Positions 739 to 29,893 of a stretch of 64,000 nt of DNA are shown one piece after another. How positions within the stretch are numbered: the stretch's first letter is position 1; each line of letters begins with the position of its first letter. The stretch comes from Microtetraspora niveoalba (GTDB lineage Bacteria > Actinomycetota > Actinomycetes > Streptosporangiales > Streptosporangiaceae): assembly GCF_001570405.1 (NCBI RefSeq), contig NZ_BBYM01000027.1, positions 62,001-126,000 of the forward strand, read 5' to 3'. A program made the translations under genes and the position numbers. The notes under the pieces are model-generated. The model was given only the letters and a program-made list of their open reading frames with translations. It did not search any database and had not been told where the DNA came from.

Positions 739-2655
739 TCAGGGGGTGGTGCCGGGGACCGGGGTTCCGAGCACCACCCCGGTCACGCACAACTTCACCG
801 ACCGGTCCGCCAGGGTGAGCGTCATCGCCTCGCCGACCCCCTTGACGGGGAAGTACGCCCCCGCCGGCCCCGCGCCCAGTGACAACTCCGCCCGCGCCTC
901 CCCGAGCCGGACCGTCGCCGAGGTGGGCCGGTCGGCCTCGTAGGTGAACCCGCCCACCGCGTAGTCCCCGTTCGACCGGACCGGGAGCGTGACCGTGCCC
1001 GCCGACCGCGGGAAGCAGCGCGCTCCCCGTTCCGGCACCGCGTACCCGCCGAGGATCCGCGGCGGCACCAGGCCGCGGCCGTCCTCGGCGAGGACCAGCG
1101 GCGAGGCGGCGGGCCGCGGGTGCCGCATCCGGTCGCGCAGCGGCTCGGGGGCGAGCGGGCTGAGCACGTGCGAGCTGAGGTTGCCCTCGCCGAAGCCGTA
1201 GATCAGCACGTCGGCGGGCAGCGGCTGCGGGTAGACGTCGGCCGTCGCGGGGGTCTTCGCCAGCGTCGCGCCGGCCGCCTCGACGTAGCCGCGCGCCCGC
1301 GCCCGCTGCGCCGCGAACTGCGCCGCGTACGCGTCCCCCGAGGCGTACGACGCGACGAGGAACACGCACACCAGCACGGCCGAGACCGCCGGCACGGCGA
1401 GGCCGCGCGGCGGCAGCGCCCGGTACGGCCGCGGCTCCTCCGGCAGCGGCAGCGTCGTCAGCCCGGCGCAGAGGGCGAGCACGACGGCGGCGTCGGCGAC
1501 GTAGCGCGGTTCGAGGGCCTGCGCCTCGAACACGCCGCGCCCGAGCAGCACCGGGACGAGGTCGGCGAGCACCAGGTAGGCGAGCAGGATCGCCCACGCC
1601 CGGGCCGCCCGCGCCCGCAGCGCCAGGGTCGCCGCCGCGTACAGCGCGAGCACCGCCCACGCGAGCGCGATGACCGGCCAGGACGGCGCGACGAGCCCGC
1701 CGAACCAGGTGCCGGGACCACCGACCGCCGCCGTGGGGAACGTCTCACCCAGCAGCCTCCCGGCGAACAGCGCGGTGTCGCCGGCCGGGGGCAGCCGCAC
1801 CGGCTGGTCGCCGGTGTCGGCCCGGGAGAGGTACACCACGGCCGCGGGCGCGAGGACCGCGGCGAGCGCGCCCCAGATGGGCAGGTTCCCGCGCAGCGCG
1901 GCCCACCACCCCCGCCACCACGGACCGGCGGTGAAGTACGCGGCGGTGAGCAGGAACAGCAGCAGCGGGATGCCGACCGCCGCCTTGAGGAAGAACGAGG
2001 CCAGCCCGAGCAGGAACCACCCGGCGACCGCGACGACGTGCCGGATCCGCCGCGTCCGCACGTAGTGGACCTGCGAGGTGAGGGCCAGGCAGATCGCGAG
2101 CTGCAACGGCACCAGCTCCAGCCCGGCGGCCCACCACAGCAGCCCGGGGAGCGTCAGCGGCGTGAAGAGGTACAGCGCGAGCGGCACCAGGATCAGCGGG
2201 CGCGCCCCGAACAGCACCCGCAGCAGCCGGTACACCGCGAGCGAGGCCGCGGCCTGGAGCGCCAGCAGCGCGCCGCTCGCCAGCTCCCAGCCGTACGCGT
2301 CGAGGTGGGTGACGACCCAGGCGAGCGCGAACCCGGCGGGCAGGAGCTTGGGGCCCCACGGCGCGGTGAGGTAGTCCCACCCGAAGCCGCGCTCGGCCGC
2401 CCTGGCGACGAAGGCGAAGTCGTCGCCCCAGAAGTAGCCGCGGGTGAACAGCGACCACTTCCAGAGCAGTTGCGCCGCGACGAGCACGAGCGCGGCGGAC
2501 GGCAGCGCCCATCGGCGCAGGAACGGCACGCTCAGCCAACGCGGCAGCTCGATCTCGAAGCTCCTCGCCCCCGCCCTGCCGGGGTCGGCGGGGGCGCCGG
2601 AACCTGCCGGAAGGTCCGCGTCCCCAGGGGTTGTCGCTCCAGCTCTCGGTTGCAC
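739..2655 (-). CDS. Polytopic membrane protein A, candidate GT-C glycosyltransferase
   Basis: About 638 residues with many hydrophobic segments and a soluble C-terminal domain of about 200 residues. I start it at GTG 2655 because AGAGGAG lies 8 nt upstream; GTG 2718 and ATG 2706 are also in frame but lack a good ribosome site. After the first membrane segment comes GYFWGDDFAF (Asp78-Asp79), then WDYLT and LPAGFALAWV. Acidic pairs at this place, in the first external loop, are the hallmark of GT-C enzymes that use polyprenyl-phosphate sugars. It is a clear paralogue of the genes at 16429-18324 and 20171-22057, sharing this motif, an evenly spaced membrane core, and two Cys and a G-x-VP ending in the C-terminal domain. 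Glycosyltransferase function and any arabinose specificity are inference. It may be transcribed from 2656-2827, where a half-operator is seen. Confidence 0.65.
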   Translation of the reverse strand: MQPRAGATTPGDADLPAGSGAPADPGRAGARSFEIELPRWLSVPFLRRWALPSAALVLVAAQLLWKWSLFTRGYFWGDDFAFVARAAERGFGWDYLTAPWGPKLLPAGFALAWVVTHLDAYGWELASGALLALQAAASLAVYRLLRVLFGARPLILVPLALYLFTPLTLPGLLWWAAGLELVPLQLAICLALTSQVHYVRTRRIRHVVAVAGWFLLGLASFFLKAAVGIPLLLFLLTAAYFTAGPWWRGWWAALRGNLPIWGALAAVLAPAAVVYLSRADTGDQPVRLPPAGDTALFAGRLLGETFPTAAVGGPGTWFGGLVAPSWPVIALAWAVLALYAAATLALRARAARAWAILLAYLVLADLVPVLLGRGVFEAQALEPRYVADAAVVLALCAGLTTLPLPEEPRPYRALPPRGLAVPAVSAVLVCVFLVASYASGDAYAAQFAAQRARARGYVEAAGATLAKTPATADVYPQPLPADVLIYGFGEGNLSSHVLSPLAPEPLRDRMRHPRPAASPLVLAEDGRGLVPPRILGGYAVPERGARCFPRSAGTVTLPVRSNGDYAVGGFTYEADRPTSATVRLGEARAELSLGAGPAGAYFPVKGVGEAMTLTLADRSVKLCVTGVVLGTPVPGTTP

Positions 2656-2715
2656 CGGCTCCGCTCCTCTGTGAGGTCGGCATCCCCCCGCGACGGCCGA
2701 AATCATGCCGGGAGT

Positions 2716-2725
2716 CACGTTCTAC
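2716..2725. promoter_or_regulatory. Half copy of the AACnnGTTCTA palindrome
   Basis: The bases CACGTTCTA match the right half of the palindromes described at 3972, 4054, 8529 and 18385, about 60 bp before the chosen start of membrane gene A. The left half is degenerate. It is listed only because full copies precede neighbouring genes. Confidence 0.3.
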
Positions 2726-2827: not shown

Positions 2828-3940
2828 TCAGTCCCCGGTGATGCGGCCGAGGCGCTCCATCGCCTCGACGTAGCCCTCGACCAGGTCGAACACGACCTGG
2901 CTGGCCGGCTTCACCTGGTTCATGGTGCCGATGATCTGGCCCGCCGGGAACGTGGCCAGCTCGCCCGCGTCCGACCGGCCGATCCGGCGCAGCGCGTCGG
3001 AGACCAGCATGAACTGGAGCGGCATCGGCAGGGTGCCGGGCGACTCCTCCGACTCCCAGGCGTCGGTCCACTCGTTCTTGAGCAGCCGGGCGGGCTTGCC
3101 GGTCCAGCTCCGCGACCGCACGGTGTCGCGCGAGGTGGCGGTCAGGATCCGGCGCCGGGCCAGCTCGGGCGTGTCGGCCTCCTCGACCGTGAGCCAGATG
3201 GAGCCGGTCCACACCCCCTCCGCGCCGAGCGCCATGCCCGCCGCCATCTGGCGGCCGTCGCCGATGCCGCCCGCGGCCAGGACCGGCACGTCCACCGCGT
3301 CCACGACCTGGGGGATGAGCACCATCGTGGAGATCTCTCCGGTGTGGCCGCCCGCCTCGGTGCCCTGGGCGACGACGACGTCCACGCCGACCTCGACCTG
3401 CTTGACGGCGTGGCGCGGCGTGGAGGCGAGCGCGGCAACCTTGACCCCGCGCGCGTGCGCCTGCTCCACGACGTCGGCCGGGGGCGGGCCGAGCGCGTTG
3501 GCGAGCAGCGCGATCGGGTGCCGCAGCGCCACCTCGACCTGCGGCCGGGCCGTCGCGTCGGTCCAGCCGAGCAGCACCTTGCCCGGGTCGTCCCCGGTGA
3601 GCGGCGGCACGTCGTGACCGGCCAGCAGGTCCTCGACGAACTTCCGGTGGCCGTCCGGGATCATGCCCTGCAGCCGGGCGACCAGGTCGGCGGGCGAGTC
3701 GACGCCGAGGTCGGCCCCCTCGTAGGAGGCGGGCATGACCACGTCCACGCCGTACGGCCGGCCGCCGACGTGCTCGTCGATCCACTTGAGCTCCAGTTCG
3801 AGCTCTTCGGGGGTGAAGTAGAGGGCGCCGAGCACTCCCATGCCGCCGGCGCGGCTGACCGCGGCGACGACATCCCGGCAATGACTGAACGCGAAGATCG
3901 GGAACTCGATCCCGAACATGTCGGTGACACGTGTCCGCAT
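2828..3940 (-). CDS. Nitronate monooxygenase (2-nitropropane dioxygenase family)
   Basis: 370 residues, a FMN-dependent TIM-barrel enzyme. The start MRTRVTDMFGIEFPIFAFSH is typical of the family, and residues about 185-200 read VAQGTEAGGHTGE, the glycine-rich FMN phosphate-binding loop with the conserved His. Family members oxidise nitronates such as propionate-3-nitronate, but relatives in actinomycetes also reduce CoA-thioester intermediates of steroid ring degradation (IpdC), so the substrate is open. The ATG at 3940 is chosen over an in-frame codon 12 residues upstream because the family N-terminus begins there. Two AACnnGTT palindromes lie 32 and 114 bp upstream, so a TetR-type repressor probably controls it. 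It stands on the same strand as, and 172 bp before, membrane gene A. Confidence 0.85.
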   Translation of the reverse strand: MRTRVTDMFGIEFPIFAFSHCRDVVAAVSRAGGMGVLGALYFTPEELELELKWIDEHVGGRPYGVDVVMPASYEGADLGVDSPADLVARLQGMIPDGHRKFVEDLLAGHDVPPLTGDDPGKVLLGWTDATARPQVEVALRHPIALLANALGPPPADVVEQAHARGVKVAALASTPRHAVKQVEVGVDVVVAQGTEAGGHTGEISTMVLIPQVVDAVDVPVLAAGGIGDGRQMAAGMALGAEGVWTGSIWLTVEEADTPELARRRILTATSRDTVRSRSWTGKPARLLKNEWTDAWESEESPGTLPMPLQFMLVSDALRRIGRSDAGELATFPAGQIIGTMNQVKPASQVVFDLVEGYVEAMERLGRITGD

Positions 3941-3971
3941 GGCCTCGACTGTATGTCCGGCTCCTCCGCAC

Positions 3972-3985
3972 TGCAACGTGTTCTA
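3972..3985. promoter_or_regulatory. KstR-like operator, site 1
   Basis: TGCAACGTGTTCTA matches the pattern TnnAACnnGTTnnA at every fixed position. It is 32 bp upstream of the nitronate monooxygenase start; on that gene's strand a TTGTCA, which could be a -35 element, lies directly beside it. Binding by a KstR-type TetR regulator is inferred from the pattern only. Confidence 0.5.
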
Positions 3986-4105: not shown

Positions 4106-4266
4106 GCCCACGCGGATCAGCGCGGGCCGGTCGGCCCGGATCGATCAGCGCTGGCGGGTCGGCGTGAGCCCGTCAGCGCGGCATCCGCCGCCCGTGCGGC
4201 CCGAGGACCAGGCACGGCGGGCGCCGCCTCCCTCCGCCCACGCGGATCAGCGCGGCATCCGCCGCC
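4106..4266. repeat. Imperfect duplication around the 3' end of dprE2
   Basis: Two pairs of 20-bp direct repeats lie here. GCCCACGCGGATCAGCGCGG occurs at 4106 and 4236. TCAGCGCGGCATCCGCCGCC occurs at 4173 and 4247; the second copy is the last five codons and stop of dprE2, and the first is an extra copy downstream. The stretch 4068-4246 otherwise shows no gene. It looks like a small local duplication of the gene end. Confidence 0.6.
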
Positions 4267-5005
4267 AGACGGCCCGGGGCAGCAGCCGCATGACGGCGAA
4301 GGCCGGGCCCAGCCGCGCCGGGACCCACACCACCCGCGCCCGCGACCGGAGCGCCGCGACCACGGCGTCGGCGACCTCGTCCACCCCCACCGACATGGGG
4401 GCGGGCGTCATCCCCTCGGTCATCCGCCCGATGACGAACCCCGGCCGGACGACCAGCACCCGCGCGCCCGAGCCGTGCAGGGCGTCCCCCAGCCCCTGCG
4501 CGAAGCCGTCCAGGCCCGCCTTGGCCGAGCCGTACACGAAGTTGGCCCGGCGGACCCGCACCCCCGCCACCGACGACAGGACCACCAGCGTGCCGTGGCC
4601 CTGCTCGCGCAGCCGGCGCGCCGCGGCGAGCCCGGCCGAGACGTGGCCGCCGAAGTTGACCGCGACGTCCCGGGCCGCCGCCTCCGGGTCGCCGTCGTAG
4701 ACCGCCTGGCTGCCGAGCACGCCGAAGGCCGGGATCACGACGTCGAGATCCCCCAGCCGGTCCACGGCCGTGTCGATCAGGGCCTGGTGCGTCTCGGGCC
4801 GGGAGGCGTCGAAGTCGGCCACGTGGACCTCGGCGCCCAGCTTCCGCAGCCGCGCCAGCTCCTCCTCCGGGACCGTGCCGCCGCGCGCCGCCAGCATCAC
4901 CCGGCTCGCGCCGTCGCGGACCAGCCGGGTGACGATCGCCAGGCCGATCTCGCTCCGGCCGCCCAGCAGCAGCACCGTGTCCACCGATCCCAGCGCGTTC
5001 CTCAC
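4247..5005 (-). CDS. dprE2: Decaprenylphospho-erythro-pentofuranosid-2-ulose 2-reductase (DprE2-like SDR)
   Basis: 252 residues, a classical short-chain dehydrogenase. Seen: nucleotide-binding glycine segment LLLGGRSEIG (13-21), Ser-Ser at 144-145, and the catalytic pair in YGSAK (Tyr158, Lys162). The RSEIG form of the glycine motif is that of DprE2. In mycobacteria DprE2 uses NADH to reduce the 2-keto intermediate made by DprE1, giving decaprenyl-phospho-arabinose on the cytoplasmic or periplasmic face of the membrane. GTG 5005 is taken as start because AGGAGG lies 7 nt upstream (5013-5018); a GTG at 5011 is too close to it. It lies 161 bp downstream of dprE1 on the same strand. The assignment is strengthened by the dprE1 and phosphoribosyltransferase neighbours. 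Confidence 0.88.
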   Translation of the reverse strand: MRNALGSVDTVLLLGGRSEIGLAIVTRLVRDGASRVMLAARGGTVPEEELARLRKLGAEVHVADFDASRPETHQALIDTAVDRLGDLDVVIPAFGVLGSQAVYDGDPEAAARDVAVNFGGHVSAGLAAARRLREQGHGTLVVLSSVAGVRVRRANFVYGSAKAGLDGFAQGLGDALHGSGARVLVVRPGFVIGRMTEGMTPAPMSVGVDEVADAVVAALRSRARVVWVPARLGPAFAVMRLLPRAVWRRMPR

Positions 5006-5166
5006 GCCCACCCCTCCTCGTACGGCCGGCCTGCCCGGCCACCGGTTCACCGATTTCTCCGGAAATTTCCGTCTATGAGATATCTCCGGGGGACGCCGGG
5101 CGCATCAGGGCCCGGAGGGACGCGGCCTCCGGGAGCGGCGACCCGGCCGAGCCCGGACGGCCGACG

Positions 5167-6585
5167 TCAAAGACGCAGTCTCCTGGCCAGGTCGGACCGG
5201 AACAGGCCGTCCGGGTCGGCGGCGTCCCTGATGGCGCGCCACTCCTCCAGCCTGGGGTACCCGGCGGCCACCACCGAGGCCGACGTACGGGAGTCCTTGG
5301 CCAGGTAGAGCCGCCCGCCCGCCGCCACGACCCACTCGTCGAACACCCGCAGCAGCCCGGCCAGCCCGGGCACGCCCGCCGGGATGTCCAGCGCCAGCGT
5401 CCAGCCGGGCATCGGGAACGACAACATCCCGGGGGTGCCCGCGCCGAACCGCTTCAGCACGGTGAGGAACGACACCACCCGCCGGGTGGACAACGCGCCG
5501 ACCACCCGGCGCAGGGTGTCCTCCGCCCCGAACGGCACCACGAACTGGTACTGCACCAGCCCGCGCGAGCCGTACATCCGGTTCCAGCCCGCGACCGCGT
5601 CCAGCGGGTGGAAGAAGGGGGTGATGCCCTGGATCAGCCCCCTGCGCTCCCTGGGCGCCTTGGCGTACCAGACGGCGTTGAAGGCGCCGACGGTTGCCCG
5701 GTTGAGCAGGCCGTCCGGCACCCGGGGCGGCGCGGACAGCCGCTGCCGGGGCGCGAACGCGAGGGGGTCGCCGCGCACGTGGCCGCGTACGTCCTCGCGG
5801 GTCGCGTGGTCGCCGCGGGTCAGCACGCTGCGCCCGGTGCGGCCGCCGCGGGCCATCAGGTCGATCCAGGCCACCGTGTAGCGGTAGCGGTCGTCGGTCG
5901 CGGTCATCACGTCGAGCGTCTCGTCCAAGTCGCGGGTCCGCTCGACGTCCACCCGCATCCGGGACGTCTCGATCGGGACGCACGCGAACGTGGCCTCGAC
6001 GATCACCCCGGTCAGGCCCATGCCGCCCACGGTCGCCCAGAAAAGGTCGTCGGACGGGCCGAGCACCCGGGCGCTCCCGTCGGCCGTCACCAGGGTCAGC
6101 GAGCGTACGTGCGCGCCGAACGACGAGTCGACGTGGTGGTTCTTGCCGTGGACGTCGGCCGCGATGGCCCCGCCGACGGTGACGTACCGGGTGCCCGGGC
6201 TGACCGGCACGAACCAGCCGCGCGGCACCAGGCCGGTCATCAGGTCGTGCAGGCTGGTCCCCGCCGACGCGGTGACCAGGCCCGACTCCGGGTCCAGGGT
6301 CCAGGACGGCCGCAGGGCGGCGCAGTCCAGGACCGTGCCGCCCGCGTTCTGCGCCGCGTCGCCGTAAGACCGGCCGAGCCCCCGGGCGACCAGACCGCGC
6401 GAGCCGTGTCCCACACGCGCCGGGTCCGCGCCGTTCCCTTTTCGCGCCGGGTCCGCGCCGTTCCCTTTTCGCGCCGGGTCCGCGCCGATCTCCTTGACCA
6501 GCGCCGCGACCTCGTCGGCCGAACGCGGGCGCGCGAGCGTGGCGGGGGTCGGGGCGGTGCGTCCCCAACCGGTCAGAAGCGTCAT
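5167..6585 (-). CDS. dprE1: Decaprenylphosphoryl-beta-D-ribose 2'-oxidase (DprE1)
   Basis: 472 residues, a VAO-type FAD enzyme that oxidises the 2'-OH of polyprenyl-phospho-ribose, first half of the epimerisation to the arabinose donor. Seen: TGWGRTAP at the N-terminus, GLGRSYGDAAQN (69-80), VTVGGAIAADVHGKNHH (135-151) for FAD binding, GWNRMYG, and LAKDSRT with the FAD-contacting Lys430. The residue matching the benzothiazinone-target Cys387 of the mycobacterial enzyme is Ala398 (PMPGWTLALD). Residues 34-57 hold a nine-residue unit GADPARKGN repeated two and two-thirds times, absent from mycobacterial DprE1. ATG 6585 overlaps the stop of the phosphoribosyltransferase gene (ATGA), so the two are translationally coupled. 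Length and motifs make the call firm. Confidence 0.93.
   Translation of the reverse strand: MTLLTGWGRTAPTPATLARPRSADEVAALVKEIGADPARKGNGADPARKGNGADPARVGHGSRGLVARGLGRSYGDAAQNAGGTVLDCAALRPSWTLDPESGLVTASAGTSLHDLMTGLVPRGWFVPVSPGTRYVTVGGAIAADVHGKNHHVDSSFGAHVRSLTLVTADGSARVLGPSDDLFWATVGGMGLTGVIVEATFACVPIETSRMRVDVERTRDLDETLDVMTATDDRYRYTVAWIDLMARGGRTGRSVLTRGDHATREDVRGHVRGDPLAFAPRQRLSAPPRVPDGLLNRATVGAFNAVWYAKAPRERRGLIQGITPFFHPLDAVAGWNRMYGSRGLVQYQFVVPFGAEDTLRRVVGALSTRRVVSFLTVLKRFGAGTPGMLSFPMPGWTLALDIPAGVPGLAGLLRVFDEWVVAAGGRLYLAKDSRTSASVVAAGYPRLEEWRAIRDAADPDGLFRSDLARRLRL
6415..6486 (-). repeat. 27-bp in-frame tandem repeat inside dprE1
   Basis: Two full 27-bp units and a third of about 18 bp before divergence encode GADPARKGN twice and then GADPAR. 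The insert sits between the N-terminal helix and the first FAD-binding strand, so the protein gains about 24 residues without a frameshift. Confidence 0.8.
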
Positions 6586-7562
6586 GTCACGTATATCCCG
6601 ATGGCGAGCAGGAGGAGCAGCAGGACGAGGAAGACCTGCAGCGGCCGGTCCCTCAGGGCCAGTTCCTCAGGTTCCTCCCCAATGCCGCGATCCACAAGTA
6701 GCGCGTGTCTCAGGACGACGAGGACGAACGGGACGATGCTCAGCGCGTAGAAGCCGAGCGCCGTCCCCTGGTGCTCCTGCAGCGCCCAGAGGCAGTACGT
6801 GACGATCATCGCGCCCGAGGTCATCGAGCGGACACCGGCCAGATAGGACGTCGTGTACACGCTGAGCGTCGACCGGGTGGCCGCGGGTTTCCCGGCGTTC
6901 CGGCCTTTCGCGGGGTTTGCAACTTTCACGCCCTTGCGCTCCTGCGCGCGCAGCTCGGCCTCCCGCTTGCCCGCGACCAGCAGCAGCGAGCCCAGCGTGA
7001 TCACGACCAGGAACCAGCTCGTGACCGGCACCGCCACCGCCACCGCGCCCGCGTACGCCCTGATCACGTGGCAGCCGGCCACCGCGACGAGATCGACCAC
7101 CGGCTGGTGCTTGAGCCAGACCGTGTAGCAGAACGTCAGCACGAGATAGCCGGCGACGACCGCGCCGAGCCGCCATCCCCCGGCCAGGCCGGTCGCCAGA
7201 CCGGCGGCCAGCAGCACCACTCCGGCGGCCCGGGCCACCGGGACCGGCACGATCCCCGCCGCGATCGGCCGGAACCGCTTGCGCGGGTGGTTGCGGTCGG
7301 CCGCCACGTCGGCGGCGTCGTTGAAGAGGTACGTGGCGCTCGCCGCGAGGCAGAACGCGGCGAACGCGATCAGGGAGCCGCGCAGGCCCGGCCAGGTCGT
7401 CAGCACTCCGGCGGCGGCCGGGGCCGCGAACGTGAGCGCGTTCTTCAGCCACTGGCGGGGCCGGCAGGCCCGCACCAGCCCGATCGCGACGGACCCGCGC
7501 GCGCGAAAGCCCGCCGGCGGCTGAGCCACCGGCGGGCGGACGGGCGCGCGTCCGCGCCCCAT
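6582..7562 (-). CDS. Decaprenyl-phosphate phosphoribosyltransferase (UbiA family)
   Basis: 326 residues, about eight to nine membrane segments. The first aspartate motif NDAADVAADRNHPRKRF (81-97) is the NDxxDxxxDxxHPxKRF form found in Rv3806c-type enzymes, which transfer phosphoribose from PRPP to polyprenyl phosphate, the committed step of the arabinose donor pathway. A basic, Lys-rich cytosolic loop (about 198-222) precedes TTSYLAGVRSM. The start ATG at 7562 touches the stop of the DUF3068 gene (TGATG), and its own stop overlaps the dprE1 start, so DUF3068-ubiA-dprE1 is a tight operon with dprE2 161 bp behind. Product assignment rests on motif plus context. Confidence 0.88.
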   Translation of the reverse strand: MGRGRAPVRPPVAQPPAGFRARGSVAIGLVRACRPRQWLKNALTFAAPAAAGVLTTWPGLRGSLIAFAAFCLAASATYLFNDAADVAADRNHPRKRFRPIAAGIVPVPVARAAGVVLLAAGLATGLAGGWRLGAVVAGYLVLTFCYTVWLKHQPVVDLVAVAGCHVIRAYAGAVAVAVPVTSWFLVVITLGSLLLVAGKREAELRAQERKGVKVANPAKGRNAGKPAATRSTLSVYTTSYLAGVRSMTSGAMIVTYCLWALQEHQGTALGFYALSIVPFVLVVLRHALLVDRGIGEEPEELALRDRPLQVFLVLLLLLLAIGIYVT

Positions 7563-8482: not shown

Positions 8483-8528
8483 CGGCTCCTCCTGGGGGGC
8501 GAGGGGGTATCGTCTGCCGTTTTGTTCT

Positions 8529-8542
8529 GAAAACCGGTTCTA
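8529..8542. promoter_or_regulatory. KstR-like operator, site 3
   Basis: GAAAACCGGTTCTA fits TnnAACnnGTTnnA except for the first base and has the palindromic core AACCGGTT. It lies between the divergent DUF3068 (start 8482) and acyltransferase (start 8596) genes, in position to control both. Confidence 0.45.
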
Positions 8543-22057: not shown

Positions 22058-25000
22058 GGTACTCCCGAAAGGCTGGGATCACGAGTGCCGATCGCGACCG
22101 GAGGCGGCGGAGCGGGCGGCGCGGGAGCCGGGACGGCGGCCGGGACGCCGGGGATGTTCCCGAACAGGCCGGCGAGCAGCGGCAGGCAGAGGAGCTGGGG
22201 CACCAGATCGGTGAGCGGGCGGCCCCACGCGGCGTTCTCCACGCCGAGCAGGTACGTCCCCACCGCCAGGCTGAGCCCGGCGAGGACGAACGACGCGGGC
22301 CCGAGACGCGGCGAGGCGAGCGCACGCAGCACGTGGAACAGGACACCGCGCCTGGCATGCGCGGCGGCCGAGACCCGGCGGAACCACACGCCCGCGGCGA
22401 ACAGCGCGGTCAGCACGGCGAGCCCGGCCACGCCGCCCGTCCAGAAGCCGTACGCGGCGGCCACCGGCCAGAGCCACCGCGCCGGGACGGCCCTCGGCAC
22501 GCAGGAGGGTGGGACGAGACCTCCCAGCGGGCCGCGGCGGCGGGCGGGCACGAGGGCGAGCGCGACCACGAGGAGGGCGAGGACGCCGCCCGCCAGCAGC
22601 CCGGCGCGGTACACGGCGTCCGGCTCGTAGCGCATGGTGACGGTCCCCGACGTGCCCTGGGGAAGGATCCACGCCTGCCGCCAGCCGTCGAGCCGGACCG
22701 CGGCCAGCTCGCGGTCTCCGGCGTAGGCGTGCCAGCCCTCGTTGAAGTTCTCGTTGACGACCAGGTAGCTCTTCCGGTCCGCCTCGACCCGGACCCGGCG
22801 CTCCCAGCCGGTCCACTCCCGCTCCTCGGCGGCCCGCATCACGGTGGCGGTCCCGCCGGACGCCCCGGTCGCGGCCTCCGGGGCGCGCACGACCGCCGAC
22901 CGGATCCGGTACGGGTCGTCGGCGGACGCGGTCAGCCGGGTCTCCCCCGGGAGCACGTTCACTCGCTCGCACGAGGCGTACGTCAGCGCCCGGCCGGCCA
23001 GGACGTCGGCCAGCGTTCCGCCGACGATCTCGGTGTTCACCGGCACGTCGTTGACCCGCAGCGTCGGGCCGAAGCCGCACGGCAGCCGCAGCGGGAACCC
23101 GCCCAGCCCGCCGAGGGGGCGCACGCCGGGGATCGTGATGTCGACGACCTCCAGCGAGCGCGAGCTGGGCGCGCTGAACTCGACGGTCAGCTCGCGCGTT
23201 CTGAGCGCAGGGAAGGTGACCCAGCCGTCCCGCCCCACCCAGCCCTCGCGGACGCCGCCGTCCTTCGCCCGCAACGTCACCCGTACGGGAGGGGCCCCGA
23301 GATGGGAGTCGGGGAAGACGACCTTGATCCGGGACAGCGTCATGGCGCGGGCCAGCCGGACGTCCAGCGACGGCCTGCGGTCGAACGGGTACGCGTACCA
23401 GACCGTCTTGGGGTCGCCGTCGAAGGCCGACCTGGCGAGCGCCGCCGGGTGGCCGGTGAACGTCGAGGTCGTCGTGACGGTGAGCGGGTCGCCCGGGAGC
23501 GAGGCGAGCTTCTCGATCGCCGAGCGGTCGGTGAGCACGGCCTGGCCGGTGACGACCCGGTCCCCCGAGCCCTGCGAGACGTAGGAGCGGTCGAAGCCGT
23601 ACCCGTCCTCGCCCAGCACCTCCAGCCGCCCCGCGCACGCCCACACGTACGAGCCGCGCATGCAGGCGGGCACGTCCCCGCTCCGGGTGAACGACACGGC
23701 GGCCTCGCCCGACCGGTCGCCGGGCACCTCGGGGACGACGATCGTGCGGCCCGGCGTGACCCCGGGGACGGATAGCTCGCGGACGCCGACCCGGCTGCCG
23801 AGGGTCGTCTTCGGCGGATAGGCCAGCTTGGTGACCCGGACCCGGACCCGGCTCGTCTCGCCCGGGGGGACGGCGAGCCGCTGGTCGTCCTCCGTCGCGC
23901 GTACCGTCTGGCGCAGCGTGCCCGCGTCGGTCTCCACCTCGATCTCCGAGGGCGGCGGCCCGATCGGGGCCTGCTCGAGCGCGATCGTCACATACTGCAG
24001 GCGGGTCGGCCCGGGGAGGCGCACCTCCAGCCACTCGCCGACCGCGCCCTTCCATCCGGTCGAACGCCAGCTCGTACGCCGGTCGCCGTCGAGCGCCGCG
24101 TAGGGCTGGTGCCCGGGGTCGCGGGAGTCCGGCATCGCGGTCACGTCCGACTCGGACGAGGAGGCGCGCACGTCCACGACCTCGAACAGCCGGGCCGTCG
24201 ACTGGAACGTCTCCCACGCCGGGTCGGTCAGGTCGCTGCCCGGGTCGGGGTCGTCGCGGGTGAGGGTGGCGGTGGCGGCCTGCCTGAGGTCGCTGACCGC
24301 GACCCCCCTCTTGCGCAGGGTGTCGGTGACGATCGTGTCGGACGGCGGGATCTCCAGCGCGCCGGGGTCGTCCCCGAGGATCACCGGGCGGTCGCCGGAG
24401 AGGAGGCCCTGCTCGGCGAGGGTCAGCACGGCCTCCGGCGCGCCGCCCACCCGCAGCGCGCCCTCGACCGGCACGGTCCCGGCGCGCGGCGCGGGATCCT
24501 CCACGCGGTAGATCTCCACCGCGTGGTACGGCTGGTCGAGCCAGCCGGAGGCGGTGTCGTTCCGGCCGATCCCGATGCCGGGGCCGAACCGCGCGACCTG
24601 GGTGAGGCCGGGTGAGTCCTCGATCGCCTGGTGGACGCGCGCCGGCCAGGCCCCGCCGATCGTGCGCCGGTCGAGGTCGTTCCGTACGACGAGGTGGGAG
24701 ACGCCGATCCTGCGCAGGGTGGCGGTCAGCCCGGCCGACCCCTGGCCGCTGGAGAAGCGGTCGTCCACGGCCGCGAGCAGCCGGGTGACGCCCGCCGACC
24801 CCCACGGCACGATCGTGTGCGTCGCCCAGCGGGCGGTGAGCAGCGGCTGCATGGGCTCGTCGAGGGGGCGGCCCCACAGGTACTCGCCGCGCTTGGACCC
24901 GGGCAGGGCGAGCACCATGCCGTCGCCCGCGTTCTCGTCCAGCCAGGTGGTGGCCTGCTTCCAGTAGCCGGGGATCTCCGCGAACGCGCCGGTGGGGGCG

Positions 25001-26307
25001 AGCCCCTGGGCGGCGACGGGCAGGCAGGTGAGCGCGACCAGCGCGCCGCTCGCCGCGGCGAGCGGGGGCCGCCACCGGGCCCGGGCCAGGGCGAGGAGCC
25101 CGGCCAGGCCGAGCGCCATGGGCAGCCGGATCAGGGCGTCGAACTTGTGCAGGTTGCGGAACGGCGCGAGCGCGCCGTCGAGCAGGTCGAGCACCGGCGG
25201 GTTGAGCGGCCCGGCGATCGCGCTCGCGTGCCCGGCCACCACGATCGCCACCCCGGCGAGCAGCGAGATCAGGAGGAAGGGACGCTCCGGCAGGTCGCGT
25301 CGCAGCAGGCCGGCCAGCCCGAGGCACGTGATCAGCACCGTGACGACGATCAGCCAGGGGCGCAGCGCGTGCTCGTAGGCCGCCGCCATCCACGGCTCGC
25401 CGTCCACCGACAGGAACGCGAGCCAGCTCGACGTGCCGCGCAGGGTGTTGGTGAGCGAGGTGACCTGGGTCGTGGCGGCGGCGTTCTCGATGTACGGCAG
25501 GAACGAGAAGACGTACCGGCCCATGACCAGCAGCGGGACCAGCCACCAGCAGGAGGCGGCCGCGACCACGCCGAGCCACCAGGCGAGCAGCCGCCGCCGT
25601 CGCGGCCCCGGCCTCCGGGTGAGCAGATAGACGAACGGGACGATCAGCACGGCCAGCTCGGCGGCGGCGTTGACGCCCCCGCAGAACAGGAACGCGACCC
25701 CCGACAGGGCCGCCGCCCGGCGCGGCCCCAGCTCGCCGCGCGCCCCCTTGACCAGCGGCAGCATGACCCACGGCAACACGGCGCTCGGCAGGAACTCCGA
25801 GGAGTTGATGCCGATCAGCGCCTGCGCGTGCGGGGCCAGCGCGTACGCCAGTCCGGCGAGGATCCGCGTGCCGGGCGTGCCGATCCGCAGCGCGCGGGCG
25901 AGCTGCACGGTGCCGAGGAAGGCGGCGCACAGCACGAACGACATCCACAGCCGCTGGACGTTCCACGCGGGCATGTCCAGCGCGAGGAACAGCGCGTAGA
26001 AGGGCCCCATCGGGAACAGGTAGCCGTACGCCTGGTTCTGCAGGTGGCCGAAGTAGGCGTCGTCCCACAGGTGCAGCGCGCGGCCGAGGAACGCGACCGG
26101 GTTGACCGCCATGTCGAGCTTGGTCTCGGCGATGATCTTCTCGGTGGCGGTGTTGAAGGCCACCGCGACGAGGAGCAGGCAGCCGGCGAGCAGCCGCAGC
26201 CGGTGCCGGAAGCGCCCGCTGTACGACTCCGCCTCCGGGACGGGCCCGGGGTGGTTCTCGGGGACTTCCGGGGGTGCCACCTGGCGGATCCAGCCGGCAA
26301 GGGTCAC
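22054..26307 (-). CDS. aftD: AftD-type alpha-(1->3)-arabinofuranosyltransferase
   Basis: 1417 residues, close to mycobacterial AftD (about 1400). The N-terminal DUF3367 membrane domain includes AETKLDMAVNPVAFLGRALHLWDDAYFGHLQNQAYGYLFPMG, with the acidic residues of GT-C enzymes, then about ten helices to residue 470. Two beta-sandwich regions (about 680-800 and 930-1050) look like discoidin/CBM domains, e.g. YAALDGDRRTSWRSTGWKG and SAFDGDPKTVWYAYPFDRRPSLDVRLARAM. Three or four helices close the protein. AftD adds arabinofuranose to cell-wall arabinan from decaprenyl-phospho-arabinose. GTG 26307 overlaps the GT4 stop, and its stop overlaps gene C. With DprE1/DprE2 in the same window the donor pathway is present. 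Specificity for a mycobacterial-type arabinan is not certain. Confidence 0.88.
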   Translation of the reverse strand: MTLAGWIRQVAPPEVPENHPGPVPEAESYSGRFRHRLRLLAGCLLLVAVAFNTATEKIIAETKLDMAVNPVAFLGRALHLWDDAYFGHLQNQAYGYLFPMGPFYALFLALDMPAWNVQRLWMSFVLCAAFLGTVQLARALRIGTPGTRILAGLAYALAPHAQALIGINSSEFLPSAVLPWVMLPLVKGARGELGPRRAAALSGVAFLFCGGVNAAAELAVLIVPFVYLLTRRPGPRRRRLLAWWLGVVAAASCWWLVPLLVMGRYVFSFLPYIENAAATTQVTSLTNTLRGTSSWLAFLSVDGEPWMAAAYEHALRPWLIVVTVLITCLGLAGLLRRDLPERPFLLISLLAGVAIVVAGHASAIAGPLNPPVLDLLDGALAPFRNLHKFDALIRLPMALGLAGLLALARARWRPPLAAASGALVALTCLPVAAQGLAPTGAFAEIPGYWKQATTWLDENAGDGMVLALPGSKRGEYLWGRPLDEPMQPLLTARWATHTIVPWGSAGVTRLLAAVDDRFSSGQGSAGLTATLRRIGVSHLVVRNDLDRRTIGGAWPARVHQAIEDSPGLTQVARFGPGIGIGRNDTASGWLDQPYHAVEIYRVEDPAPRAGTVPVEGALRVGGAPEAVLTLAEQGLLSGDRPVILGDDPGALEIPPSDTIVTDTLRKRGVAVSDLRQAATATLTRDDPDPGSDLTDPAWETFQSTARLFEVVDVRASSSESDVTAMPDSRDPGHQPYAALDGDRRTSWRSTGWKGAVGEWLEVRLPGPTRLQYVTIALEQAPIGPPPSEIEVETDAGTLRQTVRATEDDQRLAVPPGETSRVRVRVTKLAYPPKTTLGSRVGVRELSVPGVTPGRTIVVPEVPGDRSGEAAVSFTRSGDVPACMRGSYVWACAGRLEVLGEDGYGFDRSYVSQGSGDRVVTGQAVLTDRSAIEKLASLPGDPLTVTTTSTFTGHPAALARSAFDGDPKTVWYAYPFDRRPSLDVRLARAMTLSRIKVVFPDSHLGAPPVRVTLRAKDGGVREGWVGRDGWVTFPALRTRELTVEFSAPSSRSLEVVDITIPGVRPLGGLGGFPLRLPCGFGPTLRVNDVPVNTEIVGGTLADVLAGRALTYASCERVNVLPGETRLTASADDPYRIRSAVVRAPEAATGASGGTATVMRAAEEREWTGWERRVRVEADRKSYLVVNENFNEGWHAYAGDRELAAVRLDGWRQAWILPQGTSGTVTMRYEPDAVYRAGLLAGGVLALLVVALALVPARRRGPLGGLVPPSCVPRAVPARWLWPVAAAYGFWTGGVAGLAVLTALFAAGVWFRRVSAAAHARRGVLFHVLRALASPRLGPASFVLAGLSLAVGTYLLGVENAAWGRPLTDLVPQLLCLPLLAGLFGNIPGVPAAVPAPAPPAPPPPVAIGTRDPSLSGVP

Positions 26308-27554
26308 TGAGCTGCTCCGTGGAGGGGGATGCTCTTGGCGAGCTCGGCGGCGATGAGATCCGCCATGCTAGCTCCGGTTTTGCCCCATGTGAACTCCCTT
26401 GCCCAGTTTCGGCAGGCCTCCTGGATCCGGGCACGCCGCTCCGGGTCGGCCAGCTCCTTGAGCGCGTGTTCGACGACGGCGGCCAGGCTGTCGCCCTCGC
26501 GTACGAGCCAGCCCGTCACCCCGTCGTTGACGGAGTCGCGCAGCCCGGCCACGTCGTACGCCACGGTGGGCACACCGAGCGCCGCCGCCTCGATCACCGT
26601 GAGCCCCCAGCCCTCGAACTCCGAGGCCGTCACATTGAGCACCGCCGCCTTGATGACGGCGTTCTTCTCGGGCTCCGCCAGGTATCCGTGCAGGCGCACC
26701 CGGTCGGCCACGCCCCGCTCCTCCGCCCGGTGCGCGAGCCGGTCCAGCTCGGGGCCGCGCCCGACCACGTGCACGGCGAGGCCGGGCCACGCCTCACGCA
26801 GATCGGCGGCGAGGTCCACGACCCGGTCGATCCGCTTGTGGCCGACGAGGCGGCCCACGTACACGACGGCGGGCTCCCCCTCCACCGGCATGTCGGCGAC
26901 GGGCCGGGCGACCGGGCTCCCGTTGGGGATGATCACGATCGGCGCCCGCCAGCGCAGCCGGGCGCGCAGTTCCTCGCGCGACGACTCCGAGACCGTGATC
27001 GTGGTCCTGTTCCGGTACACCAGGCGGGCCACCGGTCCCTCGACGAAGCAGCCGACGCGCGCCAGCCACCGGGGGAAGAACGCGTAGAACTGCCGGTCGT
27101 GGACGTGGTGGACCAGCGACACGACGGCGGTGCGCCGCGCGACGACCAGGGGCGCGAAGAACGGGATGCCGTTCATCGAGTCGACGACCAGGTCGAACCT
27201 GCGCCGCCTGAGCAGCAGCCACAACGGCACCAGCAGGTAGACGAGGTAGCGGTTCCCCATCCGCCGCAGCTCGATGCCGTCCCGCCGCTCGGCCGCCCGC
27301 TGCCCCGGCTCGCGGCTGGTGACGAAGTGGACCAGCGCGCCCTCGCCCACCAGGAAGCGGCTGACCTGCCAGGCGTACTCCTCGGCGCCTCCGGCGACGG
27401 ACTGGAGGGGTTCGCGGAAGTTGAGCACGGCCACCCGCACGCCGCGCAGGGAGGGCTGCGGGGCGCGGGCGGTCCCGAGGAGCTGGGGACGGGCCGCGCC
27501 GAGTCGCCCGGGGGCGAACGGGGCGCCGCTCGCGCCCACATCCGGTACGGCCAC
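26304..27554 (-). CDS. Glycosyltransferase family 4
   Basis: 416 residues with the GT-B two-domain layout. The N-domain starts at VRVAVLNFREPLQSVAGGAEEYAWQ (the glycine loop), and the C-domain holds VVYVGRLVGHKRIDRVVDLA and the nucleotide-sugar E-x7-E motif in EFEGWGLTVIEAAALG. It is a cytoplasmic retaining enzyme that moves a sugar from a nucleotide donor to a lipid or glycan. GTG 27554 is preferred over 27560 because GGAGG then has a 7-nt spacing. It is first of four genes joined by 4-bp overlaps (GT4, aftD, membrane protein C, DUF3068), so it likely works on the same envelope glycan. The first 35 residues are Pro/Ala-rich and look disordered. Confidence 0.9.
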   Translation of the reverse strand: MAVPDVGASGAPFAPGRLGAARPQLLGTARAPQPSLRGVRVAVLNFREPLQSVAGGAEEYAWQVSRFLVGEGALVHFVTSREPGQRAAERRDGIELRRMGNRYLVYLLVPLWLLLRRRRFDLVVDSMNGIPFFAPLVVARRTAVVSLVHHVHDRQFYAFFPRWLARVGCFVEGPVARLVYRNRTTITVSESSREELRARLRWRAPIVIIPNGSPVARPVADMPVEGEPAVVYVGRLVGHKRIDRVVDLAADLREAWPGLAVHVVGRGPELDRLAHRAEERGVADRVRLHGYLAEPEKNAVIKAAVLNVTASEFEGWGLTVIEAAALGVPTVAYDVAGLRDSVNDGVTGWLVREGDSLAAVVEHALKELADPERRARIQEACRNWAREFTWGKTGASMADLIAAELAKSIPLHGAAQ

Positions 27555-27846
27555 GATCACTCCTCCCGTTCCTGGTACGGCTTCCTTGTCCGGTGCCGCC
27601 GCACGCTGCTTCCTGGTACGGCTCCGCTCTGCTTGCCGCCGCGGCGCCGCCGAGCGCTGCTTCCTCGCGCGGCTCCGCCACGCTCTGCGGAGAAAGTCGA
27701 AAAGGCGGGAAATCTACGGGGAAATCTGCGGGGAATTGCGGGACTTTCATGGCCGCCGGAAAAAGGCATGGCGAAACAGAACTCATCGCCCGCCGGAGGC
27801 CGGGAACCGGATGATCCGGTGATCTAGTTCAGCGAGATCGAAAAGA
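27555..27846. other. Intergenic region with short repeats and a 15-bp palindrome
   Basis: No gene is seen in these 292 bp. The part nearest the GT4 gene has imperfect copies of CTGCTTCCTGGTACGGCTCC; near 27710-27745 the element CGGGGAAATCTG recurs with small changes. ACCGGATGATCCGGT (27806-27820) is a perfect palindrome about the central G, just downstream of the DUF2613 stop; it may be a terminator stem or an operator. A promoter for the GT4 operon is expected here but I cannot place it. Confidence 0.45.
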
Positions 27847-27978
27847 TCAGCGAGTGCCGTAGTTGTAGAGCGGCTTGTTCGGAGGCTCTGGCGTCGGCGA
27901 AGCGACGTTGACGACCGCCACCGAGGCGACGCCGGCGAGCACCGCTCCGACCGCCAGAGCGGCCAGCACCTTCAACAT
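27847..27978 (-). CDS. DUF2613-family small membrane protein
   Basis: 43 residues, MLKVLAALAVGAVLAGVA at the start (one membrane helix or uncleaved signal), then SVAVVNVASPTPEPPNKPLY and NYGTR. The Pro-rich tail with a closing Tyr is the pattern of the DUF2613 family. In mycobacteria the family member Rv0236A lies beside aftD (Rv0236c); here the gene is just upstream of the GT4-aftD operon on the same strand, so the pairing is conserved. GAGAGG lies about 5 nt before ATG 27978. A near match to the shared operator is 42 bp upstream. The function is unknown; a small partner of the arabinosyltransferase is a guess. Confidence 0.82.
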   Translation of the reverse strand: MLKVLAALAVGAVLAGVASVAVVNVASPTPEPPNKPLYNYGTR

Positions 27979-28019: not shown

Positions 28020-28033
28020 TAGAACGTGATACA
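28020..28033. promoter_or_regulatory. KstR-like operator, site 7 (one core mismatch)
   Basis: TAGAACGTGATACA has the left half TAGAAC exactly and one mismatch (GAT for GTT) in the right half. It lies 42 bp before the DUF2613 start. On its own it would be weak; it gains weight from the copies at the other envelope promoters. Confidence 0.35.
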
Positions 28034-28114
28034 GGTCATAAGCCAGAGCGTTAGTCAAACCGTGACAATGCAAGTTACCCTCTGGTACCGGTCAAATTGG
28101 CGGGTAATCGCAGC

Positions 28115-29893
28115 TCACAGCCGCAACAAGAGCAGCTCTCCGGCACGGAGAACCGGCCGCGCGCCCGGAAGCCGAGACAAGAACTCGTTCTCATTAACTT
28201 GCGCGATGAGAACGAATCTCACGCCCTCGCGGGTGAGCGCCGAGGTGAGCGGGCCGTGCCCGTCCCGGATCAGGGCGCCGATCCGGCGCGCCGCCGGAGC
28301 CTCGGGCGCGACCCTGATCGCTCCCCCGGCCCGTCGCTCGACCACGAGCGTGTCGTCCCACAGGACCGGGCGGGCGAACATCTTGACGGCCGGATCGAGG
28401 ATCACCCGCCCGCCGTTCCACGCGAACGCGCGGTGCGCCCCCCACGGCAGCGACACCAGCGCGCCCGGGGCGGGGTCGGCGTTCACGAGGGCCTGGACCC
28501 GGCGCCACTCGTCCGGATAGTCCACCGCCGCAAGCCGCCCGAAGGCGCCCAGGGCGAACGTGGGCAACACCAGCACGGGAACGGCCGCCGCCGCCGGGCC
28601 CACCCGCCCCAGCCGGTCCACCGCGAAGCCGAACCCGAGCGCCTGGCACAACACGAGAGGCGCGATGAAGAGCTGGCCGTCGCGGAACGGGCCGAACCCC
28701 GGCCACCACCCGATCAGCCCCCGGAGCACGCCGGGCGCGAACGCGCCCAGGCAGGCCACCCCCAGGCCGACGACCGCCGCCGCCGCCAATCCACGCCCGA
28801 ACCGCGGCCCATTCACGCGGGCGTCCCGCCGCTCACGCACCCTGGCGATCGCGGTGAACCCGGCGAACCCGATGAACCGGGCGAACCCGGCCAGCGCGAC
28901 CAGGCTGAGGGCCAGACGCACGGCCGCGACGCTCCATGAGCCCTGCCCCGGCACCTCCGCCTCGGCGTTCCAGACGCCGCCGAGGCTGAGCAGGCTGCCC
29001 AGCGTGCCGAACGGGCCGTCCGCCCGCGCCGCGAACGCCTCCACGCCCGCCGGATCGGTCACCGCGTCCGAGCGCAGGGCCGGGACCAGCCACGGCAGGC
29101 TGAGCACCGCGACGACCAGCGCGGTCACCGGCACGCGCGCCCGCGCGACACGTGGCGGCCCGGAAAGGGCCGCCACGGGCAGCACGGTGATCGCGGTGAC
29201 CAGCATGGCCTGGAACCCGCCGACCGCCGCCGGAACGAGCGCCGCCGCCAGCCGTACGGCGTACCACCGGCCGGAGCTCTCACCCCCGGCGGCGCACCCC
29301 GCACCGCCCATGGCCCCGCCCTCGGCGGCGCCGTCCGTGGAGGCGCCCCACCCGGCGGCGCGCCACGTCGTGCCCGCCGCCGCGCGGACCGCCCAGGGCA
29401 GCCCCGCGAACCCCAGGAGCAGCGCCCACTGGCCGAGCAGCAGCCGCTGCGCGAGATAGGCGTTCCACGCGTAGAAGGCCGCCGCCGCGAGCCGCGCCGC
29501 CGTACGCTCTCCCGGCAGCAGGGCCGCCGCCCCCGACGCCGCGAGCACGAAGACGCCGAGCAGCAGCGCCTTCTGCACCATGTCCGCCGGGAGCGCGAGC
29601 GACAGCAGCGCCACGACCTGGTCGCTCGGCACCGCACGCGGGAAACCGCCGGCCCCCAGGGCCGGCCCGAAGGCCGGCGGCGGGTCCGGCACGAACACCA
29701 TGTCGTACCGCAGCACGAACCCCGGCCCCAGCGCGGGCCCGAGCGCGAGCATCCCGAGCAGCAGCCCGAGCGCCGCCGGGGCCAGGCGGGCGAGCCGGCC
29801 GCCGACGCCCGCCCGGCCCGGAGGCCGGGGAGAGAGCGGAGGGACGCCCGCCGGCCGGCGAAGGGACAGGGGGACGAGCCGGGGCAGGGACAA
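28115..29893 (-). CDS. Polytopic membrane protein, unknown (GT-C-like architecture)
   Basis: 592 residues, Ala/Leu/Gly-rich with about twelve membrane helices. After the first helix the loop reads LRYDMVFVPDPPP, then RAVPSDQVVALLSLALPADMVQKALLL, and later AWNAYLAQRLLLGQWALLLGFAGLPWAVRAA. The WN-x-Y and LGQWALL elements resemble loops of membrane glycosyltransferases and YfhO-like proteins, but I do not recognise the family firmly. The start is TTG 29893, 7 bp after the acyl-CoA dehydrogenase stop, so the two are likely cotranscribed; a weak ribosome site makes the start unsure. A long insert (about 170-200) is Gly/Ala-rich. The DUF2613 gene starts 136 bp beyond its end on the same strand. Confidence 0.65.
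   Translation of the reverse strand: MSLPRLVPLSLRRPAGVPPLSPRPPGRAGVGGRLARLAPAALGLLLGMLALGPALGPGFVLRYDMVFVPDPPPAFGPALGAGGFPRAVPSDQVVALLSLALPADMVQKALLLGVFVLAASGAAALLPGERTAARLAAAAFYAWNAYLAQRLLLGQWALLLGFAGLPWAVRAAAGTTWRAAGWGASTDGAAEGGAMGGAGCAAGGESSGRWYAVRLAAALVPAAVGGFQAMLVTAITVLPVAALSGPPRVARARVPVTALVVAVLSLPWLVPALRSDAVTDPAGVEAFAARADGPFGTLGSLLSLGGVWNAEAEVPGQGSWSVAAVRLALSLVALAGFARFIGFAGFTAIARVRERRDARVNGPRFGRGLAAAAVVGLGVACLGAFAPGVLRGLIGWWPGFGPFRDGQLFIAPLVLCQALGFGFAVDRLGRVGPAAAAVPVLVLPTFALGAFGRLAAVDYPDEWRRVQALVNADPAPGALVSLPWGAHRAFAWNGGRVILDPAVKMFARPVLWDDTLVVERRAGGAIRVAPEAPAARRIGALIRDGHGPLTSALTREGVRFVLIAQVNENEFLSRLPGARPVLRAGELLLLRL

Follow-up and report, generated by a model that had tools for sequence, protein, structure and literature searches.

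UbiA, DprE1 and DprE2 make decaprenyl-phospho-ribose (DPR) and then decaprenyl-phospho-arabinofuranose (DPA). There is also an established scheme in which a lipid donor made by a phosphoribosyltransferase, together with a GT-C glycosyltransferase carrying a carbohydrate-binding module (CBM), gives rise to pentofuranose side chains (PMC11127046, excerpt). In corynebacteria, the genes MtrP-GT-MmpA-LmcA-TmaT stand in this order together with AftD (excerpts of PMC8698533, section 3.1, and of PMC7775120, legend). Here, we analyze a locus of Microtetraspora niveoalba (assembly GCF_001570405.1; 8.47 Mb in 98 contigs) where such genes are found side by side. It lies in a window of 64,000 nucleotides (contig NZ_BBYM01000027.1, positions 62,001 to 126,000), which is the whole stretch of DNA analyzed and to which all coordinates below refer, and it encodes three paralogous proteins called A, B and C. 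An earlier note on this DNA took A, B and C to be new transferases of an arabinose-containing envelope polymer. We will argue that this holds best for B together with UbiA-DprE1-DprE2. AftD, C, MmpA, the PgfA proteins and the TmaT-like and MtrP-like proteins are better seen as parts of an envelope-glycan block that also exists in mycolate producers, the donor module being an optional add-on to it. Our reading, to which we assign a probability of roughly 0.55, is that of a modular envelope-glycan locus with a shared core, an optional donor module and A/B/C, in which B would work with DPA, C and AftD would use a donor that is another one at least in DprE-less genomes, and the polymer would not be arabinogalactan.

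The donor genes are present as the note had them, in one stretch with AftD, and all four are over curated cut-offs. On the reverse strand we find the UbiA family decaprenyl-phosphate phosphoribosyltransferase (DPPR synthase; 6582-7562, NF008978 388 bits, cut-off 207), the decaprenylphosphoryl-ribose oxidase DprE1 (5167-6585, NF053785 592 bits, cut-off 500), the decaprenylphospho-2-keto-erythro-pentofuranose reductase DprE2 (4247-5050, NF053786 291 bits, cut-off 250) and an AftD homologue with a GT-C domain and F5/8-type CBMs (22054-26307; PF11847 762 bits, cut-off 26, with PF24607 and PF00754). The three paralogues are on the same strand, A at 739-2718, B at 16429-18324 and C at 20171-22057; the note gave no coordinates for them, and the frames that we took to be meant are indeed 38-42% identical to each other (B to A 42%, C to A 42%, C to B 38%). 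The two DUF3068 proteins are there as well. PgfA1 (7562-8482) and PgfA2 (19158-20174), again on the reverse strand, match PF11271 and pass NF053601 (285 and 253 bits, cut-off 160), and PgfA2 also matches LmcA (7n3v, E 4.4e-12). Their Pfam name PorA derives from one corynebacterial member (PMC9678360, excerpt), and a porin function was rejected, because both the NCBIfam hit and the similarity to LmcA point to PgfA/LmcA. According to the same excerpt, PgfA binds trehalose monomycolate and alters lipomannan and lipoarabinomannan (LM/LAM) in M. smegmatis, so that a role in the trafficking of lipids or lipoglycans is more likely than the help with an arabinose polymer suggested before. Consecutive genes overlap in GT4-AftD, AftD-C and C-PgfA2 (by GTGA), in PgfA1-UbiA (by TGATG) and in UbiA-DprE1 (by ATGA). 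In this way, C and PgfA2 are linked to AftD, and PgfA1 is linked to the donor genes.

The co-occurrence of these families was examined in 297 genomes of the host's order (genomes are labeled G and loci L below). With thresholds set by us, DprE1 was scored as present at E 3.7e-59 or better, which gives 147 genomes (138 over the curated cut-off), and UbiA at E 6.7e-59 or better, which gives 149 (147 over the curated cut-off, the two extra ones probably being G137 and G297). AftD is found in 250 genomes and A/B/C in 161. The tests are descriptive, since the sampled genomes are related. AftD is present in 160 of the 161 A/B/C carriers, the exception being G251, a genome that is 85% complete. DprE1 is present in 117 carriers and absent from 44, compared to 30 and 106 among the non-carriers (odds ratio 9.4). 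The note had regarded a family residing mainly in dprE1-less genomes as speaking against its idea; the distribution is the opposite, yet the 44 carriers without DprE1 are a sizable group, and it is the B orthologues that track the donor genes best. For AftD, the corresponding numbers are 124 with and 126 without DprE1, against 23 and 24 in genomes lacking AftD (odds ratio 1.03), and across the order AftD thus cannot be assumed to use the donor made by the DprE enzymes. UbiA and DprE1 occur together in 142 genomes, UbiA alone in 7 and DprE1 alone in 5. AftD and UbiA, with neither DprE1 over the threshold nor A/B/C, are seen in G019, G217, G241 and G297 (borderline for UbiA in the last). Since 119 of the 250 AftD genomes have neither UbiA nor DprE1 (41 of the 119 carry A/B/C), the distribution of AftD does not follow that of the arabinose donor. 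In eight AftD loci taken from genomes without A/B/C (L129-L136), MmpA, GT4, AftD and PgfA are all present, along with the methyltransferase in seven and the acyltransferase-3 in seven; none of these loci contains UbiA or DprE genes, and one of the genomes, G058, has DprE1 elsewhere.

These numbers bear directly on the explanation closest to the original one, namely that all four proteins, AftD as well as A, B and C, transfer arabinose from DPA in the making of one arabinan-like wall polymer, with the DUF3068 proteins assisting. It would account for the donor genes lying beside all four transferases and for the odds ratio of A/B/C with DprE1, and it would agree with the AftD of C. glutamicum, which has been described as an alpha1-5 arabinofuranosyltransferase after an assay with DPA (PMC6034362, excerpt). 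It does not, however, account for the 126 AftD genomes without DprE1 at our thresholds, 119 of which lack UbiA too, nor for the 44 DprE1-less carriers, 42 of which have their single family copy outside the B clade, and a carrier strain without reported arabinose (see below) also speaks against it. We consider this explanation unlikely.

We now consider which paralogue follows the donor. The sample comprises 79 loci, drawn from the 80 best of 123 relatives, with flanks of at most 10 kb that in some cases end at contig edges, and is therefore biased to close kin. In a tree of 123 rows, a row was labeled by a DprE1 match within its flank, the exception being L115 (G080), whose DprE1 is ca 22 kb away (L119); 14 DprE1-less rows come from genomes picked by hand or returned by the scan for genomes without DprE1. 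The B clade (79 rows, SH-aLRT 99) has DprE1 with 72 rows, lacks it with 2 and is undecided for 5, while the figures are 19, 10 and 2 for a wider C-type clade (31 rows, SH-aLRT 97), and 4 with and 1 without for the A group (5 rows, SH-aLRT 99). A larger tree of 210 rows was also built, to which 83 of 85 added loci contributed a row (the fragments L180 and L181 gave none). The size of the C clade shifts between FastTree runs (24 of 210 against 31 of 171 rows), which makes the C counts soft, while the B assignments of the DprE1-less genomes are identical in both runs. All 44 DprE1-less carriers are single-copy, and the copy belongs to the B clade in only two of them, G105 and G059. The genus Nonomuraea offers a contrast within one genus, with totals counted by hand: the two-copy DprE1-containing genomes have one B and one C in eight of eight cases, the ninth DprE1-containing carrier (G080) has no B, and a B copy is found in none of the 30 DprE1-less carriers (0/30 against 8/9). 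Among the paralogues, B tracks the donor best, and it is for this reason the foremost candidate for a DPA- or DPR-dependent enzyme. The closest named relatives of B are those of Microtetraspora malaysiensis and M. fusca (84%).

Of the two exceptions among the DprE1-less carriers, G105 is instructive. In its locus (L107, 4379-7613), UbiA is kept beside PgfA1 and ca 90 bp from a gene for a nitronate-monooxygenase-like protein (NMO), DprE1 and DprE2 are gone, and B is kept, so that this might possibly be a natural ribose-only variant. It leads to the alternative that the donor module serves chiefly for ribofuranose: UbiA would lead to DPR, the glycan would be ribosylated, and DprE1 and DprE2 would be an epimerizing option, as in three-component pentofuranose systems. 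Seven AftD genomes with UbiA and no DprE1 agree with this, three of them carrying A/B/C (the UbiA of G297, with E 6.7e-59, probably falls short of the curated cut-off), as does the combination of GT-C and C-terminal CBM, an architecture shared by the founding ribosyltransferase of GT136 (PMC11127046, excerpt). Ribose is also found among the whole-cell sugars of Nonomuraea corallina, together with madurose, mannose and glucose (PMC10694255, excerpt), although the ribose of whole-cell hydrolysates may stem from RNA. On the other side, DprE1 is present in 142 of the 149 UbiA genomes as well, and we regard a chiefly ribosylating module as rather improbable.

A, B and C have no significant Pfam or NCBIfam family. 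A Pfam search at E up to 5 gives no match for A and B and only DUF420 (0.37) for C, and over 74 members of the family the best match is PMT_2, in 2 of 74 at E 0.0025. B has no match among PDB sequences, and the profile of our alignment A4 (74 of 107 family rows, 33 having been removed by hand as presumed near-duplicates) has no sequence match to PDB chains of Emb, AftA, AftB or AftD at E up to 10. The matches of this profile to designed immunoglobulin-like proteins (E 6.9e-5 and 1.6e-4, residues ca 509-565) are presumed to be an effect of chance or composition and not kinship. In hhalign, the family profile is weakly similar to AftD (probability 29, E 5.9e-4); the idea that A/B/C belong to the same family as MmpA was rejected (probability 2.7 over 68 columns).

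The structural model of B, predicted with the 74 family rows, has a pLDDT of 93.7 and a pTM of 0.91. In Foldseek, chain A of the EmbA-EmbB complex (7bvf, E 1.5e-5) comes out on top. Further Emb chains and oligosaccharyltransferases come next, and AftD is at rank 22 (E 5.8e-3). Comparison with VIA gives an oligosaccharyltransferase (8agb, Z 20.0, 4.6 Å, 321 aa), Pmt4 (9i5k, Z 18.7, 4.5 Å, 347 aa), AftD (6w98, Z 16.9, 5.4 Å, 375 aa), ArnT (5ezm, Z 16.9, 4.9 Å, 336 aa), AftB (9dlh, Z 16.0, 4.5 Å, 336 aa), EmbB (6x0o, Z 14.0, 14.1 Å, 435 aa) and AftA (8if8, Z 12.9, 5.2 Å, 341 aa). At the level of prediction, B is thus a GT-C protein with an Asp-bearing first outer loop, and the same fold is likely for A and C at ca 40% identity to B. 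The GT-C assignment of the note, for which a structure without this fold would have been a refutation, is therefore well supported for B and likely for the other two. Asp54 and Asp55, located after the first membrane helix, are invariant in all 74 rows of A4, as are Arg368-Tyr369, Asp372 and two cysteines of the C-terminal domain. His76 is found in 68 and Lys199 in 71 of the 74 rows; A, the third paralogue of the family, has Trp and Ala at these positions (B numbering) and keeps the Asp pair.

The family has some outlying members. A distant relative (28%) in G031, a genome of family group f6, is encoded at 8980-10788 of L118, where its start overlaps an open reading frame of 400 aa and it lies near genes of topoisomerase I and DNA polymerase III delta; Pfam gives no family for the relative or for the overlapping neighbor. 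Streptosporangiaceae bacterium NEAU-GS5 has two more tandem members beside NMO-DprE2-DprE1, apart from its B (L018, 15270-18817). The record of Glycomyces fuscus TRM 49117 contains two identical rows on two contigs (L062, L063) that are nested among Nocardiopsis, and it is perhaps misnamed or mixed.

Over the 79 loci, the same order recurs, MmpA-GT4-AftD-(C)-PgfA2, methyltransferase, B, acyltransferase-3 and PgfA1-UbiA-DprE1-DprE2-(NMO)-(A), and this recurrence puts the cluster beyond chance. Within the flanks, the methyltransferase is counted in 78 loci, acyltransferase-3 in 74, PgfA1 in 72, DprE1 in 71, UbiA in 70, DprE2 in 65, PgfA2 in 52, AftD in 50, GT4 in 49 and MmpA in 41. The two halves of the locus can separate, as many Nocardiopsis loci contain the part from the methyltransferase over B, acyltransferase-3, PgfA1 and UbiA to the DprE genes with no AftD in the flank. 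In Thermobifida fusca (L059), a B-type gene occurs along with both core and donor genes. That the neighborhood is a matter of descent without joint function, with A/B/C belonging to another pathway such as protein O-glycosylation, is suggested by the top VIA matches being enzymes that act on proteins and by the sole copy of G271, which has no other cluster genes within ca 9 kb (L110), but it is quite improbable in view of the GTGA overlaps from GT4 through AftD and C to PgfA2, the presence of AftD in all carriers but one, and the joint presence or absence of B and the donor genes inside one genus.

The shared part of the locus is also found in other family groups. MmpA (28115-29893, reverse strand; Rv0226c/NCgl2761 family, NF053599 324 bits, cut-off 210) lies inside the range that the note covered and was not named there. 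It resembles the GT-C part of AftD and has no CBMs. MmpA is over the cut-off in 68 of 197 genomes of the class, from 13 family groups by hand count; PMC8698533 states that it has no homologue outside corynebacteria and mycobacteria. Around MmpA, the loci L120-L128, from eight genomes in four further family groups of this class, have GT4 and MmpA in all eight, the methyltransferase and AftD in seven, and acyltransferase-3 and PgfA in six. G031 has methyltransferase-GT4-MmpA-PgfA-acyltransferase-3 with AftD ca 10 kb further on (L120, L121), which is the corynebacterial order. Among titles and abstract openings of the open-licence PMC literature, no description of the locus outside the Corynebacteriales was found.

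A profile of 26 MmpA rows, that of G031 included, aligns with the GT-C domain of AftD over 473 columns in hhalign (probability 99.4, E 1.2e-21), and Asp64 after the first helix of MmpA is invariant. The structural model of MmpA is weak (pLDDT 66.8, 14 rows), and a GT-C reading rests for this reason mainly on the profile match; the best structural match is again AftD (6w98; Foldseek E 3.9e-5; VIA Z 18.9, root-mean-square deviation 10.0, 433 aa), the first VIA row over the membrane part that is not of GT-C type being at Z 5.2. In PMC8698533, where the precise role of AftD is called unclear, a partial likeness of MmpA to AftD was noted, the AftD part concerned was read as membrane-anchoring, and MmpA was described as being without a recognizable catalytic domain. 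Since Pfam describes the matching part of AftD as a GT-C domain, a transferase or transferase-derived role appears to be the better guess for MmpA.

GT4, the acyltransferase-3 and the methyltransferase were found by Pfam as the note had listed them. The GT4 glycosyltransferase (26304-27560, reverse strand; PF00534) occupies the place of the corynebacterial-locus GT gene and is 36% identical to its L120 equivalent. The acyltransferase-3 at the TmaT position (8596-9924, forward strand; PF01757, E 5e-35) and the S-adenosylmethionine-dependent methyltransferase at the MtrP position (18384-19217, forward strand; PF08241) are 32% and 54% identical to the L120 equivalents at the same positions, and neither passes a curated model. 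An acyl-CoA dehydrogenase double protein (29901-32180, reverse strand) is a neighbor of MmpA in several loci, and the NMO gene (2828-3976, reverse strand; PF03060) is a common neighbor in DprE-less loci too. A DUF2613 gene could not be confirmed: the putative small membrane protein of 43 aa at 27847-27978 (reverse strand) reaches only E 0.55 and 10.8 bits with PF11021, against a cut-off of 22.1. The genes for MarR, a penicillin amidase, an ABC permease and ATPase, and PadR (9936 to approximately 16300, reverse strand) were rejected as parts of the cluster; the loci of M. malaysiensis and M. fusca (L013, L014) have none of them between the two flanking genes, and the region of ca 9.9-16.3 kb is therefore probably an insert. 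The frame 8470-9816 (reverse strand), antisense to the acyltransferase and without a family match, was not accepted as a gene. Further along, a large NAD-glutamate dehydrogenase (43488-48539, reverse strand) has a frame of 1750 aa on the opposite strand, which is common in high-GC DNA.

As to the envelope, the note had seen no EmbA-C genes in the window, and this extends to the whole host genome. EmbABC (PF04602), AftA and GlfT2 have no match in it, while the C. glutamicum control is positive for all three, and an arabinogalactan of the mycobacterial kind thus appears unlikely in the host. For the Streptosporangiaceae, mycolic acids are stated to be absent (PMC6113628, excerpt). The polymer is probably a lipoglycan, or a wall polysaccharide other than arabinogalactan.

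Several points weigh against our reading and are gathered here. In the excerpt of PMC8049491, the whole-cell sugars of Microbispora catharanthi CR1-09, a strain whose locus L028 carries UbiA-DprE1-DprE2-B, are galactose, glucose, madurose and a little xylose. The missing arabinose is unfavorable, although thin-layer chromatography may miss minor sugars, for instance a pentofuranose present in small amounts on a lipoglycan. The activity of the corynebacterial AftD with DPA fits the earlier note better. As regards the structure, the C-terminal domain of B (residues 516-626) matches the CBM35 of 2w46 with Z 7.0 (2.9 Å, 100 aa), which is under the value of 8 where VIA warns of merely common arrangements. 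The oligosaccharyltransferase and Pmt4 score above the arabinosyltransferases, and the fold of B therefore does not settle the type of enzyme among the GT-C proteins. Concerning the distribution, a B-clade copy is present in 40 of 40 single-copy DprE1-containing genomes, but these were picked among the top scorers for the family, which favors B, and some of them are the same strains as among the 79 loci; of 10 low-scoring genomes examined, only two (G090, G139) have one. In total, B is present in 50 of 58 classed carriers (40 + 8 + 10) out of the 117 with DprE1, the other 59 being outside the classing. The donor module does not strictly require B, as eight DprE1-containing carriers have no B-clade copy (G071, G080, G091, G236, G248, G275, G291 and G296), and in G059 B is present with neither UbiA nor DprE1 over the threshold. 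Finally, the co-occurrence counts are raw, without phylogenetic correction, and the only control is the contrast within Nonomuraea.

What we observe are the gene identities, the predicted fold of B, the conserved gene order and the co-occurrence. The donor, the acceptor, the linkage and the direction of transport are what we infer, and for the modular locus that we favor they may be put together as follows. The core would consist of the acyl-CoA dehydrogenase, MmpA, GT4, AftD, the TmaT-like acyltransferase-3, the MtrP-like methyltransferase and a PgfA/LmcA protein, and is common to the corynebacterial and mycobacterial locus and many actinomycetes of the host's order. The optional module PgfA1-UbiA-DprE1-DprE2 would provide DPR and then DPA, and the added transferases would be B, inherited mostly with this module, C and A. 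Once flipped outward, the lipid donor would be held by B in its GT-C site, with the invariant Asp54 and Asp55 in the first outer loop, and B would add D-arabinofuranose to an acceptor glycan bound by its CBM; where DprE1 and DprE2 are lost and UbiA is kept, it would add ribofuranose instead. C and AftD, whose genes overlap in one operon, would also work on this polymer; in genomes that lack the DprE enzymes, their donor must be something other than DPA made by these enzymes. A, like C, would probably use the donor of AftD. The TmaT-like, MtrP-like and MmpA proteins would acylate the product or aid its export, and the PgfA proteins would carry its lipid part.

A broader proposal, which we put forward tentatively and at less than even odds, is that MmpA-GT4-AftD-TmaT-MtrP-PgfA is an old actinobacterial system that builds and exports an acylated surface glycan or glycolipid and was later recruited to mycolates, this direction being putative. 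MmpA and AftD would then be related GT-C proteins with a donor that was originally not DPA, A/B/C a new GT-C family, and the B clade its pentofuranose-dependent branch. AftD, MmpA, PgfA, TmaT and MtrP have so far been studied as mycolate, lipoglycan or arabinan proteins, and if the proposal is true, the mycobacterial role of AftD needs to be re-examined. As this block also occurs in a family for which no mycolates are recorded, and AftD in 119 genomes that lack UbiA and DprE1 at our thresholds, the basic chemistry can be tested in harmless soil actinomycetes, and Nonomuraea provides a natural contrast of strains with B and the donor genes and strains with neither.

Compared with known systems, B has the GT-C fold in common with EmbA/B/C, AftA, AftB and AftD, and CBMs are found in Emb and AftD as well (PMC11127046, excerpt), whereas A/B/C have neither a sequence match to these enzymes nor a Pfam family, the AftD profile match being the weak one given above. 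ORF12 of Citrobacter youngae, of GT136, belongs to a three-component system with a polyprenyl-phospho-pentofuranose donor made via a phosphoribosyltransferase and a GT-C enzyme with C-terminal CBM, and is similar to B in architecture (same excerpt). A counterpart of the locus is TmaT-LmcA/PgfA-MmpA-GT-MtrP with AftD of the Corynebacterineae (NCgl2757-2764 in C. glutamicum), which has the same gene families in the same neighborhood. Here, on the other hand, PgfA is duplicated and UbiA-DprE1-DprE2 and A/B/C lie inside the locus, and while the corynebacterial system is concerned with trehalose-mycolate export and LM/LAM, the host's family is recorded without mycolic acids. MmpA itself (Rv0226c, NCgl2761), whose NCBIfam model is passed by the protein at 28115-29893, has a wider distribution than published.

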